Shown here piece after piece: positions 5,509-29,943 of a DNA stretch of 29,943 nucleotides. The stretch comes from a virus. Under the pieces are notes generated by a model that ran no database searches, was not told the origin of the DNA, and was given only the letters and a program-made list of their open reading frames with translations. Numbering within the stretch: position 1 is the stretch's first letter; the number at the start of each line of letters is the position of its first letter. Both the position numbers and the translations under genes were made by a program. The stretch is from positions 1-29,943 of IMG/VR virus record IMGVR_UViG_3300032304_000185. One strand, given 5' to 3'.

Positions 5509-7032
5509 TTACGCACCCATCCAAGATCCAGACATTGTAGACCCACTAGACCTTAAGGTTTTAGGTGGCTCTTTGTATTCTCGATGCGCTACAGGGTAAG
5601 CAAAGGTCACCGCCAGCGCGTCGGCTGCGTCAGGTGATGCCAATCCTCTAGACTTCATTTCTTTCTTGCCTTCCAGAAAGATCGTACCCGCCGAGTTGGG
5701 CTTTTTCATCGGGCCAACCAGATCGGCCTTTAACTGCCGATCCTTTGGAATGCTCGCAGACCTTAACCAGTCCCGCATCGCACCCCACATCTCAGCCCGC
5801 TTATTACCCCACATCACCGGGTTTTTAGCCTTCCAGCCAAAATTGACCCCTCGCACCTTATACCTCTGTTCAACCAATCGGTCAAGTATTCCATACCCCA
5901 AACCACCCTCGTCAATGACCGTCAGCGTGGGCTTGTACTCCTCAATCGCGTCAATAACATTCCCAACGGTGGTCATCGTATCGTCGCCCCTAAACCGCTT
6001 AATCGCAACAATGTCGCGTCCCTGCCTCACCACAATCACCGTTGAATCCAAACCTCCTCGCGCCGGATCAACCCCAATAACAATCGGCGCGGTCTGATCC
6101 TTATATTTTTCTCGCTCCATCGCATCGTCGACCAAACTTGGCCCAATAAATTGGTCATCCCCACTAGCCGGAAACTCTCCGTACACCTCCACCCGCGCTT
6201 GAGGTGAATCCTCCCCATACTCGGCGATGATCTGCTCATAAGTATTCTTGTCCGTCCCCTCAACCTCCCTGGCATCAATCTGCCGGCCCTTCCAAAAATC
6301 CCGCTTGCCATGAAATGTCTCAAAGAAATACCCACTGTTTCTCCTTGGGTTACTAAACGCAAACCAATACCTGTCTAAAATATTCTCAGTAAAGAACCCC
6401 GCACCCACCGCCCATATCGGGTCCGGTATCCCGCTTGCCTCGTCAAAGATCAACATCATTCCGTCGTGATTGTGCACCCCGGCATACGCATCCGGGTTTT
6501 CCTCTGACCACAACTTGCCCTCTGCTGCCCAGTAGCGCGTACCTTTCTTCAAATCCCGCTCAACCAGCTCCGTCAACCACGCCGCCGGCACGATCTTGGT
6601 CGCACTAATCTCCCACCAGTAGCTGTTGATAATCATCGCTTGCCACTTGGTCAACTCACCCCAGGTCACCGAGCGCAGCTGGCTCTCGCTGTTCGCACTA
6701 ACAATCACCGTAGAACCAATCCTAGTGGTCAGCATCCACAATATCAGCCAACTCACCAGCGCAGACTTGCCAATACCACGCCCGCTCGAGACCGCCTCGC
6801 GCAGCGTCTGCATATCAACCTGGCCTTGGTTGTCCTTAATGTGCTTGGCAATGTCCCTCAAAATCTCCCTCTGCCACTTCCTCGGGCCGCTGAACTTAGC
6901 CAACGGCGTGTTCGCCTGACCCCACGGGAACGCAAACAACACAAACGCCTCCGGGTTGTCCGCAACCGCCGGCGACCATAACTTGGTCATCAAGATCTGT
7001 TCGTCTTCGGCGCTATAACGAGTTTTTTGCAT
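5509..7032 (-). CDS. terL: Terminase large subunit (ATPase/nuclease)
   Basis: This 507-aa packaging motor subunit translocates DNA into the procapsid and cuts concatemers. The N-terminal ATPase has a Walker A SGRGIGKS at residues 83-90 and a Walker B MLIFDEA at 193-199, with a catalytic Glu. The C-terminal RNase H-like nuclease has acidic residues in GVDPARGG (D322), TVIDEGG (D374) and ASPDAADALA (D468/D471). It acts with TerS (upstream gene) and portal (downstream). No Shine-Dalgarno sequence precedes the ATG at 7032. Instead there is an A/T-rich tract with two T runs on the coding strand, so translation may depend on the unstructured leader. Confidence 0.95.
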   Translation of the reverse strand: MQKTRYSAEDEQILMTKLWSPAVADNPEAFVLFAFPWGQANTPLAKFSGPRKWQREILRDIAKHIKDNQGQVDMQTLREAVSSGRGIGKSALVSWLILWMLTTRIGSTVIVSANSESQLRSVTWGELTKWQAMIINSYWWEISATKIVPAAWLTELVERDLKKGTRYWAAEGKLWSEENPDAYAGVHNHDGMMLIFDEASGIPDPIWAVGAGFFTENILDRYWFAFSNPRRNSGYFFETFHGKRDFWKGRQIDAREVEGTDKNTYEQIIAEYGEDSPQARVEVYGEFPASGDDQFIGPSLVDDAMEREKYKDQTAPIVIGVDPARGGLDSTVIVVRQGRDIVAIKRFRGDDTMTTVGNVIDAIEEYKPTLTVIDEGGLGYGILDRLVEQRYKVRGVNFGWKAKNPVMWGNKRAEMWGAMRDWLRSASIPKDRQLKADLVGPMKKPNSAGTIFLEGKKEMKSRGLASPDAADALAVTFAYPVAHREYKEPPKTLRSSGSTMSGSWMGA

Positions 7033-7184: not shown

Positions 7185-7757
7185 CTAACCCGTTGATTTC
7201 ATTGCATTTTCGTCTCCGCGGTCGGCGATGTTACCCCCATTGTTACCCCCAACGTACTCGACCGTAACAGGCGTAACCGCATCCGTAACAAGCGTAACAG
7301 GCTCTGTTACGGTCAGTAACGGCGTGTCCATCTCCACGATCTCGGCCTCGATCAAGCGTGCTTGCGCCTGGGCGAGCGCGTCGGTGATGGAGATGTTGCC
7401 GCTCACCTCGATCTGGCGCGGTGCTTCGGTCCAGCGCATTTGCGTCTTAGTCCACCAGATGAGCGACGCCACGTCGCCGGCCATAGCCTTCTGATAGAGC
7501 GTCTGCCCGATGCCAGCACTAGCTTTAGCCCTGCCGCGCTCAAGCTCGGTCATAAAGTACTTGCGCAGCGTGGTGGTGTTTATGCCATCGCCAATGAGCG
7601 GGGCGATGTGATGCTCGGCGACGCCCCAGTTCGCCAGCTTCTCAACCATCTCTCGATCTTTGTCACTCGGCACAAACTCAGGTCGACCCGATCCCGGTTG
7701 CGGCCCTCCTCGCTTCTTCTTTTCTTGAACTGATTTTCCTTTTTCCGTCATTTCCAC
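7185..7757 (-). CDS. terS: Terminase small subunit (DNA recognition)
   Basis: This 190-aa protein sits directly upstream of terL. After a basic N-terminus (KKKRGGPQPGSGRPEF) there is a helix-turn-helix-like segment at about residues 32-75. It is followed by ELERGRAKASAGIGQTLYQK and MAGDVASLIWWTKTQMRW, a signature I know from phage small terminase or packaging proteins. TerS rings bind the pac/cos site and stimulate TerL. The acidic/Thr-Val-rich tail (VTEPVTLVTDAVTPVTVEYV) is encoded by a cluster of CGTAAC hexamers. The start is the GTG at 7757, five bases after GAGGGG; an ATG two codons later has worse spacing. Confidence 0.8.
   Translation of the reverse strand: MEMTEKGKSVQEKKKRGGPQPGSGRPEFVPSDKDREMVEKLANWGVAEHHIAPLIGDGINTTTLRKYFMTELERGRAKASAGIGQTLYQKAMAGDVASLIWWTKTQMRWTEAPRQIEVSGNISITDALAQAQARLIEAEIVEMDTPLLTVTEPVTLVTDAVTPVTVEYVGGNNGGNIADRGDENAMKSTG
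7263..7311. repeat. GTTACG/CGTAAC hexamer cluster inside the terS 3' end
   Basis: CGTAAC starts at 7263, 7272, 7284 and 7293 (steps of 9, 12 and 9), and GTTACG at 7306. The same hexamer dominates the spacer upstream of terS. Here it also encodes the Val-Thr repeats of the TerS tail, so selection could act at DNA or protein level. Confidence 0.7.
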
Positions 7758-7788: not shown

Positions 7789-7915
7789 CGTAACGCTCCG
7801 CATCGTACCGTAACACCGTAACACCCTAAAGGGTGTGTTACGTTACGTTACGGTAAACTCGCCTTTGCCGCCGTAACAATGTTACGCCATGTTACGGCTT
7901 GTTACGGTTGTTACG
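7789..7915. repeat. Iteron-like GTTACG/CGTAAC array upstream of terS
   Basis: There are eleven copies of the hexamer in 127 bases. CGTAAC starts at 7789, 7809, 7817 and 7872. GTTACG starts at 7837, 7842, 7847, 7881, 7891, 7901 and 7910. The last four are spaced 10, 10 and 9 bases apart, about one helical turn. Three others overlap in tandem with a 5-base period. A 7-bp perfect inverted repeat ACACCCT/AGGGTGT (7821-7836) lies at the centre. This non-coding spacer between the replicase and terS is a candidate packaging site, replication origin or operator. Confidence 0.75.
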
Positions 7916-9776
7916 GACTAACTTTTATAATGAGTTTAGAACCTAATACTGTATCTTTAACCAGCCATCCCTTATCGTGCTTGCCTATAATTTCAGCATC
8001 GGTCAGATCCCTGATGATCATCCCCGGTCTGGCTGAAGACTTGAGGTGCTGATCAACCGAGTTGGCTTTGATGCCTTGCTCAAGCAAAAACGTCTTAAAC
8101 GCCTCTCGGCTGACGTATGGCATCTCATCCATAATTTCCGCACCGCCAACGAACCAAGCCCGCTCAAGATTGGCCTTGTGTTCTGCCAACTTGTCTTCCT
8201 TTGGTTGTGGGATACGAAGGTCGCCTTCTTGAAACATCTCAAACACCGCCCCAGGCAGCGGCATCCCATCCTCATCCTGCCAACCTAGATCTACTGGGCT
8301 GAGACATCCAAATAGATCTGCTGGTTCTGGCGCGTCTTTCTGCTTGGTGCAGCTAACGATAATCTCGTGAGTCTTGCCGTGAACCAGAATGCTCGCGTCC
8401 AATGCCCCACGCCACGCGCTAGAACCCCGCGCACGCTGTTTGGCTTCGTTACTGTGCCCAAGGTGATGTATCAACATGGTTGTGGCACTGAGAGCCATTG
8501 AGACCACGTTACAGGCATTGATCATGGCGCGTGAGTCTTTGGCGCTGTTCTCGTCCCCTGACATATGGTTGTTCAGGGTGTCGATGTTAACTAGCGCCAC
8601 TGGCTCGGAGGTCAATGCCCGGACTGCCGCAATCACCTGAGTCGCAGCGCCGGGTCCATCCATGTCAATGGCTTTGTTGCTAATTAGCAAGTTGTCCAGA
8701 CTATTTACGTTGTTCCGCTTGCACCAGCTCGCAATGCGCTGGCGCATTCCGTAGTTACCCTCACCTGCCAGATACACCACGATGCCAGGTTTAGTACGGA
8801 TGCCGTGCCAGTCGATCCCGCTGGCTATGCAGCAGGCCATGTCGAGCGCAACGAAAGTCTTACCCACTCCAGACTCGCCGTACATCATGGTTGTGGCGTA
8901 TGCGGGAAGCCAACCCTTCACAATCCACGGCACGGGGCTTGGTTGGCCCAAGAAGCTCGTCGCACGGGTCAGGAAGTAGTCGCGTGTCTCCTCTTGGGTG
9001 AAAAGCGTGTCAAGGGCCGCAGAACCGAGCGCGTTACTGGCCGCAACGTCTGCGTCTGGTTCGTACCTCGTGACTGATCTTGCGATCTGCTTGATCTCGC
9101 TCGATGGTAATGGGATCTCGCAGCGTGTCTCGTTTGCAACACTAATCGCGGCCAAGATCTCGGCTTCCGTCATCCCAAACGAGCGCATCGCCCCGGCCAG
9201 ACTCGTTAGGCCATCGTTGCGGTTACCTTGGATTAGATCCCCGTTAGTTGTGGGTGCAACCTTGCGCTGCCCAAGGAGCGGCAACCAATGGGTTGGTATC
9301 TCTGTTGGTGGAACACCGTCTAACGGATCGCTGGACGCTTCCCACTCGTAGGCGCGGTGCTCAATCGTTGACGGGTAGACGATGAAGTACCGGCCATCGG
9401 CTAACAGGTCTATCCCATCGGCCAGCTTGCAAGATCGGATGCCGTCAACGTGCTTGGCAACGTAATGCTGCCCACCACCTGCGGTCATCGCCATTACGCC
9501 ATCAGGGATCTGGCCGTGATCAGAGAGCCATTGCTCCCAATTAGCGTCGCCGCCGTTGCGTGGGTCAATGTCAAACACCACGATACCGCTGGCGCTGCCG
9601 CAAGCAATACCGACATTCAGATTCGGGTTCTGCCCCCACCAACGCTGGATCTGGGCGGGGTCTGTCGTCGCATCGTTGACCCCGTGAGCGGTGGCAGGAA
9701 CCTTGCCGTTTGGCACTACTGGTAACACTCGCCAGCCCCAACTTGCATACAAAAGCGCCGCGTCAATCTTGTTCAT
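7911..9776 (-). CDS. Bifunctional primase-polymerase / AAA ATPase (replicative helicase-like)
   Basis: With the ATG at 9776 the protein has 621 residues. The N-terminal 170 residues match a prim-pol domain: ALLYASWGWRVLPV, VGIACG, the acidic motif VFDIDPRNGG (D69, D71) and GGGQHY. The second half is a RecA/RepA-like ATPase (AAA_25 type) with Walker A YGESGVGKT near 299-307, Walker B VALVNIDT near 393-400 and RGSSAWRGALD. Such proteins prime and unwind DNA for phage replication. I reject an upstream ATG that would add 23 residues, because the prim-pol fold starts at MNKIDAALLY. The chosen start overlaps the cro-like gene by 14 bases, suggesting one transcript. Its stop falls inside the GTTACG array. 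Confidence 0.88.
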   Translation of the reverse strand: MNKIDAALLYASWGWRVLPVVPNGKVPATAHGVNDATTDPAQIQRWWGQNPNLNVGIACGSASGIVVFDIDPRNGGDANWEQWLSDHGQIPDGVMAMTAGGGQHYVAKHVDGIRSCKLADGIDLLADGRYFIVYPSTIEHRAYEWEASSDPLDGVPPTEIPTHWLPLLGQRKVAPTTNGDLIQGNRNDGLTSLAGAMRSFGMTEAEILAAISVANETRCEIPLPSSEIKQIARSVTRYEPDADVAASNALGSAALDTLFTQEETRDYFLTRATSFLGQPSPVPWIVKGWLPAYATTMMYGESGVGKTFVALDMACCIASGIDWHGIRTKPGIVVYLAGEGNYGMRQRIASWCKRNNVNSLDNLLISNKAIDMDGPGAATQVIAAVRALTSEPVALVNIDTLNNHMSGDENSAKDSRAMINACNVVSMALSATTMLIHHLGHSNEAKQRARGSSAWRGALDASILVHGKTHEIIVSCTKQKDAPEPADLFGCLSPVDLGWQDEDGMPLPGAVFEMFQEGDLRIPQPKEDKLAEHKANLERAWFVGGAEIMDEMPYVSREAFKTFLLEQGIKANSVDQHLKSSARPGMIIRDLTDAEIIGKHDKGWLVKDTVLGSKLIIKVSP

Positions 9777-9936
9777 GGTCTGCACGTAACTTGCCCTCAG
9801 TCTTAACTTCGATCTCGTACTGTCGCGCCATCGGCGGGCGTTCACCCCACCGATAGATCACTTGGGGCCAGACCCCAAGCGCATCGGCAAGCTTTTTCAG
9901 CCCGCCAAAGTGCTTGATCGCTTCCTCTGTTGTCAC
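9763..9936 (-). CDS. Cro/YdaS-like HTH repressor (57 aa)
   Basis: The predicted protein starts TTEEAIKHFGGLKKLADALG, then VWPQVIYRWGERPPMARQYE. This is the pattern of small Cro/YdaS-type repressors: helix, turn ALGV, recognition helix with Q-VIYRW, then P..R..EIE..T.G.L. The GTG at 9936 is chosen because AAGGAGA lies about five bases upstream. A longer ATG-initiated frame would give a Cys-rich, atypical N-terminus. It is the first gene of the leftward unit and probably binds the divergent promoter region to set early/late or rightward/leftward transcription. No CI-type partner or integrase is in the window. Confidence 0.8.
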   Translation of the reverse strand: MTTEEAIKHFGGLKKLADALGVWPQVIYRWGERPPMARQYEIEVKTEGKLRADHEQD

Positions 9937-12073: not shown

Positions 12074-13099
12074 ATGAAAATCCCTGACGCTCAATATAGC
12101 ATTCCCGAGCTAATTGACCAACACCACGCAGACAAGCCAGAGAAGCCAAGGGCACATCTTGGTGCAAGCCAACTCGGTCACCCTTGTGACCGTTGGCTAT
12201 GGCTGTCGTTCCGCTGGGCGGTGGCAAGTAAGTTTGAAGGTCGCGTGTTGCGTATGTTTCGGCGCGGCCAGAATGAAGAAGCCACGATCAAGGACGATTT
12301 ACAAGCCATCGGCATCCAGTTTAAGCCAGGGGTAACGCAAGAACGGGTGGACTTTGGTTGCCACATTAGCGGGAGCATAGATGACATCGCAATATCTGGA
12401 GTGCCGGGAGCGCCACAGAAGAAACACGTTTGTGAGTACAAAACCCACAACAAAAAATCGTTTGAACAAGTCGAAGACAAGGGCGTGGAACGTGCCAAGT
12501 TTGATCACTTTGTGCAAATGCAGTCTTATATGCATGGCACTGGTATTGACCGCGCGTTGTATGTGGCTGTCTGCAAAGATGACGACAGACTCTACACCGA
12601 GCGGGTGGAGTACGACAAAGGCGTCGCCGAAAACGCAATAGCCCGTGGTAAGCGGATTGCATTGTCAGACCGAATGCCCGAGCCTTTGAGCGCAGACCCT
12701 AGCTGGTATCAATGCAAGTGGTGTCCAGCGCATGAGTTCTGCCACGGCGACCGTTTAACCAAAGAGGTCAACTGCCGCACCTGCGCCCATAGCACGGCGA
12801 CCGAGGATTCCAAGTGGATCTGCGAGCGCCACGCTGGTAATGAGATACCCGTTGAGTGGCAGCGTGAGGGTTGCGGTAGCCATGTCCTGCATCCCAATAT
12901 GGTCCCGTGGCAGCTCAAGGAAGCCGGCGACCAGTGGCAGGCAATCTACGTCATCAAAGGCAAAGAAGTGGTCAACGGCGAGCCAGGGGACGGTGTGTAC
13001 GGTTCTAAGGAGTTGGTTGCTAACGCTACTGCTTGTGCTGAGTCTGACGAAGGGATGATTGAGTTTCGTAAGATGTTTGATGCTCGAGTGGTGGGATGA
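12074..13099 (+). CDS. Cas4/RecB-like PD-(D/E)XK nuclease with Fe-S cysteines
   Basis: From the ATG at 12074 (AAGGAG about ten bases upstream) the protein has 341 residues. Nuclease motifs are ISGSIDDIAI (D103/D104), VCEYKTHN (E121, K123) and QMQSYMHG. One cysteine before the core (GHPCDRW, C38) and three after it (C214-x2-C217-x5-C223) match the 4Fe-4S arrangement of Cas4/AddB nucleases. A C-terminal extension has a second Cys set (C234, C237, C250, C267) that could bind zinc. The enzyme probably resects DNA ends for the neighbouring Sak4/SSB pair. The stop overlaps the methyltransferase ATG (ATGA). Confidence 0.82.
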   Translation: MKIPDAQYSIPELIDQHHADKPEKPRAHLGASQLGHPCDRWLWLSFRWAVASKFEGRVLRMFRRGQNEEATIKDDLQAIGIQFKPGVTQERVDFGCHISGSIDDIAISGVPGAPQKKHVCEYKTHNKKSFEQVEDKGVERAKFDHFVQMQSYMHGTGIDRALYVAVCKDDDRLYTERVEYDKGVAENAIARGKRIALSDRMPEPLSADPSWYQCKWCPAHEFCHGDRLTKEVNCRTCAHSTATEDSKWICERHAGNEIPVEWQREGCGSHVLHPNMVPWQLKEAGDQWQAIYVIKGKEVVNGEPGDGVYGSKELVANATACAESDEGMIEFRKMFDARVVG

Positions 13100-13855
13100 A
13101 TGAGTTGGCTTTATTCGCGGGCGCTGGTGGAGGAATACTCGGCGGCCACCTCCTCGGATGGCGCACAGTCTGTGCAGTCGAATGGGAACCCTACGCAGCT
13201 TGCGTACTTGCCGCCCGACAAAATGACGGCATTCTCCCGCCTTTCCCGATTTGGGATGACGTTCAAACCTTTGACGGAAAGCCTTGGGCAGGACGTGTTG
13301 ACGTCATATCTGGAGGATTTCCCTGTCAGGACATCTCAGCAGCAGGAGGTGGAGACGGCCTGGAAGGAGAAAGATCCGGAATGTGGTCACACATGGCTAG
13401 AGTTGTTGGCGAGGTTCGACCCCGTTACGTTTATGTGGAAAACTCCCCAATGCTCACTTCTAGAGGATTACACCGAGTTCTCGGAGACCTGTCCGAAATG
13501 GGGTTTGATGCAAGATGGGGTGTTGTATCAGCAGCAGAGTGCGGCGCCCCCCCACAGACGCGACAGGATCTGGATTCTGGCCAACTCCCGTGGCATCAGA
13601 TTGCAAGGGCGGGAAGTCCAACACGGTTCACTACAAAAACCAGAGGTTCGTAAGGATCAGCCAGACTACAGGCACAGAGTTTGGGGCGAAGCTGTCAGCC
13701 TCGTATCAGTTGATGACTGGAAATCCTTTGCCGGAAAGTTTTTCCGAGTGGATGATGGGTTGGCCTCCAGGGTGGACAGACTTAAATCCATTGGCAATGG
13801 ACAAGTACCAGCAGTGGCAGCAACAGCATGGAGGCTCTTAAATGATCCTGCGTGA
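13096..13855 (+). CDS. C5 cytosine DNA methyltransferase, frameshifted at a C7 run
   Basis: The first frame (ATG at 13096) has motif I LALFAGAGGGILGG, motif IV SGGFPCQDIS (catalytic C77), motif VI VYVENSP and the run to SAAECGAP. After the seven Cs at 13547-13553 this frame becomes nonsense and stops at 13653. Removing one C restores motif VIII (ECGAPHRRDRIWILA) and motif X (DRLKSIGNGQVPAVAATAWR), ending at 13855 with 252 aa. The intact enzyme would be a short Dcm-like C5 methylase. It could protect phage DNA from host restriction or alter replication. As written it lacks motifs VIII and X and should be inactive. A sequencing error, natural phase variation and +1 frameshifting are all possible. 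It overlaps the helicase start by 14 bases. Confidence 0.82.
13100..13841 (+). CDS. Overlapping ORF in the +1 frame of the methyltransferase gene (possible dual coding)
   Basis: An ATG four bases after the methylase ATG, directly after the nuclease TGA, opens a frame with no stop to the C7 run. The same one-C correction moves it into the frame that ends at 13841, immediately before the helicase ATG. The corrected product is 246 aa: MSWLYSRALVEEYSAA, FGMTFKPLTESLGQD, EDFPVRTSQQQE, ARFDPVTFMWKTPQCSL, FSETCPKWGLMQDGVLY, then GSGFWPTPVASD and PGWTDLNPLAMDKYQQWQ. From memory, proteins with this same series of motifs are annotated as hypothetical in many phages. They may be true products or mistaken shadows of methylase genes. 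Its key motif FPVRTSQ is the +1 reading of the catalytic FPCQDIS. Function unknown. Confidence 0.4.
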
Positions 13856-17340: not shown

Positions 17341-17706
17341 CGTCATCAACTGCTCAACCTGAAGATCTGGCGGCGGGGGTAGGCCCTTCGGGATAATGTC
17401 TACGCCCTGCCCAAACGCCCATACCCATTGCATCAGAGGATAGCCAAGAAACTGATAGGCTAGGCCAGCAACGCCAACCCAACCGACAGCAGGACGCCAG
17501 CCAGAGACAAATACGCTAGTGCTTGCAGCTTCAATTTTATTGATGTCCACTTGGGCGAGATCGGTCGCTTGGTCGATGCGCTTTTCCTCAAGGTCGAGTT
17601 TGCGCTCCTCCAACGCCATTTCCAAGCGTTCTTTGTCGGTTGTGTACAAATCCCCCGCAACTTTTCCGACCCCTTCAATAATTGATCCAATACCGAGCAA
17701 GTCCAT
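17269..17706 (-). CDS. Holin (GTA/3TM type)
   Basis: This 145-aa protein has an N-terminal start (MDLLGIGSIIEGVGKVAGDL), a long charged helix (residues 24-60) and then hydrophobic segments around RPAVGWVGVAGLAYQFLGYP, LMQWVWAFG and LMTLLAGLLGFGGMRS. This matches the GTA-type three-transmembrane holin family. It forms lesions in the inner membrane to release the endolysin at the end of the cycle. Its ATG shares one base with the stop of the HNH gene (TGATG). The 3' end overlaps the convergent plus-strand gene by 72 bases. Confidence 0.78.
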   Translation of the reverse strand: MDLLGIGSIIEGVGKVAGDLYTTDKERLEMALEERKLDLEEKRIDQATDLAQVDINKIEAASTSVFVSGWRPAVGWVGVAGLAYQFLGYPLMQWVWAFGQGVDIIPKGLPPPPDLQVEQLMTLLAGLLGFGGMRSFEKYRGVAAK

Positions 17707-18227
17707 CAGACATTCTCCGTTCGCGCACGTTCAGCTTGCGCTCTCGCTGCTACTGCGTCTTTGATTGAATCAAATAACCCAACATGAGTGGGCTTGCCTT
17801 GTTTACTAATCTGCACAACCCATTTTTTTGAGGCTTTGTGCCAAGACACGCCCTGAACACCACTTGTGTTGTCACTACGAACTGAAGCATTCTGGGCGTT
17901 TAGTTCCGCTGACGCCAGCCTAAGATTGACAATTCTGTTGTCTGACCGATTTCGATTGATGTGGTCAAGCCATTCGGTTGGCATATTGCCGTGAATGTAC
18001 AACCACGCAAGCCGGTGGGCTTTGTATAAAAAACCGCTAAGCCTAATAACCAAATAACCTTCTTCGCTCAAATGACCGCACGGTTTCCCCGGGTACACAC
18101 TATTAAACACTCTTTGACGCCGTTCGCTCTTAAAATGAGCTAGGGGTCGCACTTTCCAAAAAAACGCTCCCGTTTCTGGATTGTAATCAAGACATTCTTT
18201 GATGTACGTTTGCGTCAAATCTTTCAC
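17706..18227 (-). CDS. HNH homing-type endonuclease with AP2 DNA-binding domain
   Basis: This 173-aa protein has the HNH core KAHRLAWLYIHG (H71) and WLDHINRNRSDNRIVNLR (D88, H89, N97), followed by an AP2-like domain SGVQGVSWHKASKKWVVQIS and HVGLFDSIKDAVAAR. Such free-standing HNH-AP2 proteins are mobile nicking or cutting enzymes, common in phages. Here the gene sits between endolysin and holin with a four-base overlap on one side and a one-base overlap on the other. It therefore appears integrated into the operon's translation rather than merely inserted. Confidence 0.88.
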   Translation of the reverse strand: MKDLTQTYIKECLDYNPETGAFFWKVRPLAHFKSERRQRVFNSVYPGKPCGHLSEEGYLVIRLSGFLYKAHRLAWLYIHGNMPTEWLDHINRNRSDNRIVNLRLASAELNAQNASVRSDNTSGVQGVSWHKASKKWVVQISKQGKPTHVGLFDSIKDAVAARAQAERARTENV

Positions 18228-29172: not shown

Positions 29173-29943
29173 TTAACCCCAGACGCGACAAGCCATCTGC
29201 GGACGAATTGTGTTGAAACCGTACAGAACGTCAATACGGCAAGGCAGACGGTCGTTGTTGATGTCGTACTGGCGCACGACACGCAACGAAATACCGTTAT
29301 GCACTGCGCGAGCAGCCATATCAACACCCTGCGGCAGCAAAAGGTCAGCCGTAGCAAACGTGATTGCGTCCTTGTGGTAGACCAAGTTCTGTGGGTATTG
29401 AGTTGAGGCAGTACCAACAAACACCACGGCTTTGCTAGTTGCAGGCAAAGTCAATACGGTTGCCAGAGCGTTGCTTGCTGAGTAAATTGGAGCAACAGTG
29501 ATGTTGCCAGCACCTGCACCACTCAAAGTCACATCAGCAGTAGCCACAAACTGGAACAAAGAGCCAGTTGACTCACGGGTCTGTGGGTTCACAGCAAAGC
29601 AGTCAGCCACGGTGAACACGTCGCCAATCTTGACAGTTGCGTTAGCACCAGCGCCGGTGATGGCGATGGTGGTTGCGCCTTCTGCCGTAACCGCTGCCGA
29701 AGTCGTGCCGCCGGTTGCAGTGCGCGAACCCGTTGTAAACTGCTTGATCGACTGAGACATATTGATCTCGTCAAAACCCAACACGCCAGTCCCCATCATG
29801 CCGTTCTTGAACTGCTTGCTGATGGTATCCGTTGGGTTAAACAGACCTTTCATGCCTTCAACAAGACCAGCGTTTGCAGCGGGGTTAACCGTTGCATAAC
29901 GTGGGGACATTACAGCAGCGTTTTCGTTTAGCTTCTGTTGAGC
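29173..29943 (-). CDS. Major coat protein, P22 gp5-like (5' end cut by window)
   Basis: The frame is open to the right edge: AQQKLNENAAVMSPRYATV precedes VNPAANAGLVEGMKGLFNP and TISKQFKNGMMGTGVLGFDE, typical of P22-type coat proteins. The middle has a beta-rich inserted domain (GATTIAITGAGANATVKIGD) like the I-domain/telokin-like part, and the C-terminus ends GFNTIRPQMACRVWG. The true start is beyond the window. Together with gp4- and gp10-like genes it confirms the P22-like capsid and tail system. Confidence 0.9.
   Translation of the reverse strand, partial: AQQKLNENAAVMSPRYATVNPAANAGLVEGMKGLFNPTDTISKQFKNGMMGTGVLGFDEINMSQSIKQFTTGSRTATGGTTSAAVTAEGATTIAITGAGANATVKIGDVFTVADCFAVNPQTRESTGSLFQFVATADVTLSGAGAGNITVAPIYSASNALATVLTLPATSKAVVFVGTASTQYPQNLVYHKDAITFATADLLLPQGVDMAARAVHNGISLRVVRQYDINNDRLPCRIDVLYGFNTIRPQMACRVWG

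Follow-up and report, generated by a model that had tools for sequence, protein, structure and literature searches.

A probable iteron origin attached to the gene of a prim-pol/RepA-type helicase in a tailed phage

What reads an array of eleven copies of one hexamer, GTTACG, that lies between a replicase gene and the small terminase gene (terS) of a virus? The array was found in the virus record IMGVR_UViG_3300032304_000185, which we analyzed over all of its 29,943 bases and refer to as the window. A sequence-only reading of this DNA had taken the neighboring genes for a prim-pol replicase and terS, and it had left two uses for the array, as a packaging (pac) site read by TerS or as iterons read by a replication initiator. 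Both neighbors had been named correctly, based on Prim-Pol, PriCT-1, and AAA_25 domain matches in the replicase (hereafter, the initiator) and on a PHROG assignment for TerS. They are part of a minus-strand series transcribed in the order Cro-like regulator, prim-pol/RepA-type helicase, terS, terL, and P22-like portal. The coordinates are collected in Table 1.

Several other features of the window are worth recording. The major head protein gene at 29173-29910 is cut by the right end of the window and has lost the N-terminal portion; its product matches only positions 167-383 of the 385 in its family, and the record is therefore a fragment. A DNA C5-methyltransferase-like gene at 13096-13855 is apparently split across two frames (13096-13653 and 13515-13841), which, judging by the translations alone, seems to reflect a frameshift or an assembly error. 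A gene for an HNH/AP2 homing-type endonuclease is located at 17706-18227, within the group of genes that spans 17.2-19.1 kb. The window contained no Rfam match and no tRNA, and an RNA element or a tRNA was rejected as the identity of the array. Cumulative GC skew reaches its minimum near 10 kb, approximately 2 kb from the array, a position that gene direction alone could explain.

Table 1. Coordinates of the array, its parts, and the neighboring genes in the window
Feature	Positions	Strand	Basis or remark
terL (large terminase)	5509..7032	-	context
terS (small terminase)	7185..7757	-	PHROG; downstream neighbor of the array, not the protein tracked by it
Second GTTACG cluster, 5 copies, in VT..VT codons of the terS C-terminal tail	7263..7311		only in the clade of the window
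Iteron array, 11 copies of GTTACG/CGTAAC	7789..7915		positions conserved across relatives
Central palindrome ACACCCTAAAGGGTGT, CTTTAG core in prim-pol sense	7821..7836		hairpin ACACCCT-AA-AGGGTGT
First iteron, overlapping the prim-pol stop codon	7910..7915	+	TAA at 7911-7913, minus strand
Initiator (Prim-Pol + PriCT-1 + RepA-type hexameric helicase (AAA_25) + C-terminal winged helix, 644 aa)	7911..9845	-	domain matches
Predicted winged-helix DNA-binding domain, residues 548-644	7914..8204	-	AlphaFold2; tracks the iteron word
Predicted recognition helix, residues 594-600	8046..8066	-	third helix; residue 599 the best specificity candidate

The claim that eleven copies in 127 bases are far beyond chance was confirmed, with copies at 7789, 7809, 7817, and 7872 on the minus strand and at 7837, 7842, 7847, 7881, 7891, 7901, and 7910 on the plus strand. 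In 100 simulated genomes of the same length (third-order Markov), the best count of any hexamer per 127-base stretch was only 3-5. The whole window contains 25 copies against 12.5 expected, a number that no shuffle reached. Read in the prim-pol sense, the array opens with four forward copies 9-10 bp apart, a single inverted copy, and the spacer GGCAAAGGCGA; a triplet of forward copies stepped by 5 bp comes next, and the central palindrome then separates this triplet from three inverted copies. The phased steps of 10, 10, and 9 bases (7881-7910), the three overlapping copies (7837/7842/7847), and the 7-bp perfect hairpin had all been described accurately, and the overlap of the first iteron with the initiator stop codon (CCG TAA C in prim-pol sense, the copy being CGTAAC) had been missed. 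Apart from the palindrome, no portion of the array retains its sequence from one lineage to another.

In order to place the array among its relatives, we gathered loci first through terS and terL and then through the initiator, from viral contigs and bacterial genomes; all relatives other than the named phages are metagenome or genome contigs. A DNA-level search of named phages returned MW202867.1 as the sole match in the initiator, and protein searches were therefore used. A search of plasmids gave partial matches only. An array was called when the repeats within 240 bases after the initiator stop exceeded every one of 60 shuffles. By this measure, an array immediately behind the stop is present at 154 of the 172 initiator-family loci whose downstream region is readable. 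In most of the remaining loci, the array is displaced by an inserted gene, or the region contains GC runs or partial repeats, and a few loci (L078, L165, and L166 among them) seemingly have no array near the stop codon. Where the initiator is readable, the array begins at its stop codon, usually 5 bases inside. At a few loci, another gene lies between initiator and array, and the array then follows that gene. Six loci (L017, L030, L038, L043, L088, and L168) have an open reading frame there, from about +1 to +850 after the stop, which by eye is a candidate PAPS-reductase-like gene, and the form of the array is kept behind it.

The gene that follows the array is much less constant. Depending on the relative, it is terS, a PAPS-reductase-like gene before terS, MazG, or a hypothetical gene, and in several cultured phages that carry the array it is not terS: Alteromonas XX1924 and PB15 (word GGTTCA), Idiomarinaceae 1N2-2 (GGTACA), and Salicola CGphi29 (GGGGACA). 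These observations bear on the pac reading, in which a ring-forming TerS would bind the array and headful packaging would start there. In its favor, terS is the gene immediately downstream of the array in the window and itself contains a second GTTACG cluster, and the pac site of P1 is likewise an array of hexamers. However, in many relatives terS has been pushed 0.5-1.3 kb away, with the array kept at the initiator stop, and no terS follows the array in 1N2-2 or the Alteromonas phages within the stretch examined.

The words themselves differ between relatives. GTTACG is the word of the window clade, and others include GTGACG (L035), GCTACG (L037), GTTCCC (L067), TGTCCC (L069), TGTCAC (L083), and GGGGCG (L082). 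Taking the top hexamer of a 250-base region as the word, we obtained 39 top hexamers from 155 arrays, some of which are shifted frames of one word. In four loci (L241, L242, L232, and L223), the array is built of C and G runs (CCCCCT type) that escape simple repeat scans, and L215 has four more copies of its own word, GGTAAC, inside the initiator gene, at -349 to -291 from the stop. The sequence-only reading had proposed looking for conservation in related phages, which is what we found: rather than drifting at random, all copies within an array change in concert. Even the stop codon follows the word, being TAA in CGTAAC arrays and TAG in the CGTAGC arrays of GCTACG-type relatives.

The geometry of the array stays the same as its words change. 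Across 77 arrays made of different words, the copy positions coincide relative to the CTTTAG/CTATAG palindrome, with forward copies from about -90 to -55 at ~10-bp steps and at -25, -20, and -15, and inverted copies near -50 and from +5 to +19. A palindrome with a CTWWAG core was counted in 78 of the 135 non-redundant arrays, whereas shuffles yielded 2.0. The array, its location, its conserved geometry, and the concerted change of its words are all shown directly by these comparisons.

We compared three proteins as candidate readers of the word, and it was the initiator DNA-binding domain that co-varied with the iteron word between relatives. We restricted the correlation tests to arrays with at least 6 copies. 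Among 122 non-redundant initiators, word distance correlated with distance in the winged helix (the last 93 residues) given the helicase (partial Mantel r = 0.54), and none of 500 permutations reached this value, the highest being 0.08 in label shuffles that ignore the tree. The reverse test, word against helicase given the winged helix, gave -0.06. Across 44 loci with TerS, the word followed the winged helix given TerS (partial r = 0.74 with the TerS N-terminus controlled, and 0.63) and did not follow TerS given the winged helix (0.02 and -0.05). For the 27 loci with a Cro-like protein, the partial r was 0.91 with the winged helix versus -0.09 with the Cro-like protein. The word therefore co-varies with the winged helix and not with TerS, Cro, or the helicase core, and we rejected a Cro operator on this basis.

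Individual pairs of loci make the same point about TerS. L077 and L082 have TerS proteins that are 96% identical, with the words GTTACG and GGGGCG and initiator C-termini only 30% identical; L067 and L070 (TerS 95% identical) have GTTCC and GGGGC; and near-identity of TerS at 93% is likewise found beside completely different arrays. Conversely, TerS proteins with different N-terminal DNA-binding domains adjoin the same array. Since near-identical TerS proteins accompany different arrays, different ones accompany the same array, and the array often remains where terS has moved away or is missing, the pac reading is unsupported and was rejected as very improbable; the site sequence is not matched to a cognate TerS. 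Of the two uses left by the sequence-only reading, the iterons stood and the pac site did not. The iteron reading is supported because the array stays attached to the initiator gene with or without a nearby terS and co-varies with the winged helix.

Three pairs of relatives (L035/L037, L244/L251, and L213/L215) show what such a change looks like in otherwise similar genomes. Their helicases are at least 98.5% identical, their winged helices are only 42-49% identical, and their words differ. Between the L035 and L037 initiators, identity is 92-100% over almost every stretch up to about residue 550 and falls to ~50% exactly within the winged helix. In this pair and in L244/L251, a stretch of low nucleotide identity spans approximately -300 to +130 relative to the stop and is flanked on either side by higher identity, which exceeds 90% in terS for L035/L037; in L213/L215, the low identity continues for ~500 bases beyond the stop. 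L244 and L251 have the same spacer and palindrome arms (GGGTTCTTTAGAACCC) and differ in every iteron, which suggests that the words were rewritten in place.

The domain involved was examined by structure prediction. In the full AlphaFold2 model (18 sequences), pLDDT is 80-91 over residues 548-644 and poor in the N-terminal half (mean 56); the C-terminal domain modeled alone with 63 relatives has a mean pLDDT of 80. Its predicted topology is helix-strand-helix-helix-helix with a beta-hairpin wing. Among solved structures in the PDB, the fold of the full model most closely resembles RSF1010 RepA (1nlf, 1olo). For the C-terminal domain, Foldseek against the PDB returned nothing significant (best E 0.08, to CRP-type winged helices), VIA-align reached Z scores up to 6.6 to assorted winged helices, which is not distinctive, and a sequence search of the winged helix against the PDB gave no meaningful match. 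Weak Pfam RepA_N matches in 6 of 63 winged helices (E no better than 0.02) were left aside. As the PDB matches are generic and without a significant E value, the winged-helix assignment rests on the predicted topology, and the initiator is best described as a primase, a helicase, and a predicted C-terminal winged helix. Within its predicted recognition helix, residue 599 is the best candidate for a specificity residue: it differs in 0% of 520 same-word pairs and in 96% of 48 different-word pairs, the pairs being non-independent. The neighboring residues 598 and 600 also rank high in word tracking.

The second GTTACG cluster, which the sequence-only reading had missed, lies in the terS tail, where TerS of the window clade has a repeated Val-Thr motif. 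In this tail, 134 of 172 VT pairs are written GTTACG, versus 7 of 389 in prim-pol plus terL of the same loci. Such a strong codon bias points to selection on the DNA word itself. No tail repeats were present in lineages with other words. The cluster may be a further region for binding, in the way that P4 pairs its crr with an ori, or it may connect replication to packaging.

Two further readings take the array as a protein-binding site of another kind. In the first, the initiator or the Cro-like protein would repress the end of its own mRNA or the terS/late transcript, as a replication-to-packaging switch without origin function. The array does lie in the terS leader in the window, initiators often autoregulate, and binding by the initiator fits an operator as well as it fits an origin. 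However, the array adjoins the 3′ terminus of the initiator gene and not its promoter, relatives have widely differing genes next to the array, the word shows no co-variation with the Cro-like protein, and about ten copies in a fixed inverted geometry are more than an operator needs, so we consider an operator unlikely. In the second, the words would be centromere-like and form a partition or incompatibility site of a phage-plasmid, with copy number controlled by the same initiator. Iteron arrays commonly carry incompatibility, which diversified words would relieve. With no ParA/ParB-type gene recognized among the window proteins examined and a replicative helicase as the tracking protein, this reading is extremely improbable.

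Based on these results, we consider it very probable that the array serves the window phage as an iteron origin or as a cis element resembling one, as P4 crr does. By inference, its words are almost certainly docking sites for the initiator, and the array is most likely the start point for genome copying. Winged-helix copies would bind the GTTACG words directly behind their own gene. The two oppositely oriented word sets flank the central CTTTAG palindrome, so that helicase rings would be loaded facing opposite ways; melting would follow at or near the palindrome, after which the prim-pol part would synthesize primers. It is important to note that two observations count against an origin. The DNA separating the iteron sets is not rich in AT, in contrast to PICI origins, and the mean AT excess inside the array is 0.01-0.08; in addition, the GC-skew minimum lies approximately 2 kb away, although gene direction alone could account for this. 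Among the arrays, there was no strong, conserved AT-rich unwinding element, with a mild AT enrichment shortly ahead of the stop and between +140 and +200.

A broader interpretation is possible, though we hold it only tentatively: the array and the winged helix may form a widespread replication-specificity locus of tailed phages, with many matched alleles (~20 or more words) exchanged or rewritten in place under diversifying selection, and with terS-tail iterons coupling replication to packaging in the window clade. If so, diversification may serve escape from incompatibility with related phages or from parasites that hijack or cut origins. For phages with prim-pol/RepA-helicase replicases, the analysis names where replication likely starts and which domain would read that site, making the question directly testable. 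The many natural alleles, in which geometry is fixed and word and winged helix vary, also represent a ready-made data set on a protein-DNA recognition code; among them are three cases in which the domain has been exchanged naturally between proteins that are nearly identical elsewhere.

The nearest characterized case is P4. As a positive control, the same scan found the P4 crr, with 10 copies of GGTGAA directly behind the alpha gene versus a shuffle maximum of 4, in agreement with the annotated crr and its type-1 repeats directly behind that gene. The window locus has the same arrangement of multiple short repeats, in both orientations, directly behind an initiator gene, with a second iteron region elsewhere. 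The initiators are also alike in joining a primase, a helicase, and a C-terminal winged helix, which for P4 is described in a passage of PMC4234260 that also cites binding of the alpha winged helix to ori repeats. Alpha differs in its bacterial-type primase, according to the same passage, whereas the initiator here has a prim-pol and a RepA/RecA-fold helicase. The annotated P4 ori lies ~4.5 kb away, and P4 is a satellite, unlike the tailed window phage with its own portal and terminase.

The pri-rep-ori of SaPIs and other PICIs, and SCCmec Cch2, share two iteron sets immediately 3′ of the initiator gene (PMC6092414; PMC7581432), and the C-terminal domains of SaPI Rep and Cch2 recognize iterons directly downstream of their own genes (PMC7581432). 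PICI iterons flank an AT-rich region, whereas the sets here flank a palindrome that is not AT-rich, and PICIs are satellites that need a helper, whereas the window has genes for TerL, a P22-like portal, and a major head protein. The rep-then-iterons layout has been described as present in no known bacterial replicon except PICIs (PMC6092414). We found no description of the present arrays in the literature searched, mostly outside subscription journals, and these phages seem to form another group with this layout, larger than the first.

Other systems resemble the locus in part. The helicase domain best matches the solved RSF1010 RepA. RSF1010 likewise has an iteron-driven origin with its own primase and helicase. 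Its RepA, RepB′, and RepC are separate polypeptides, whereas primase, helicase, and DNA-binding domain are fused here, and the primase type differs. ORF904 of pRN1 also combines a prim-pol, a helicase, and a C-terminal winged helix, with a required cis region just downstream (PMC4234260). That region is a 100-nt stem-loop without iterons, and the helicase is of the SF3 type; the locus here has iterons and a short palindrome, which does not match a pRN1-type stem-loop origin. In geminiviruses, iteron position is constant and iteron sequence is diversified (PMC12548392), and in PLE, a change of iterons or replication module allows escape from an origin-cutting phage nuclease (PMC8263062). In both, as here, position and repeat pattern are kept as iteron sequence diversifies with the initiator (PMC12548392; PMC8263062), although geminivirus Rep and PLE RepA_N are unrelated to the window protein, as are their replication modes. 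By analogy, the arrays would work like those of P4 and PICIs, without being PICIs or pac sites themselves. Overall, the reading we favor is a P4/PICI-like iteron origin that is coupled to a helicase of the RepA type and whose specificity alleles can be exchanged.
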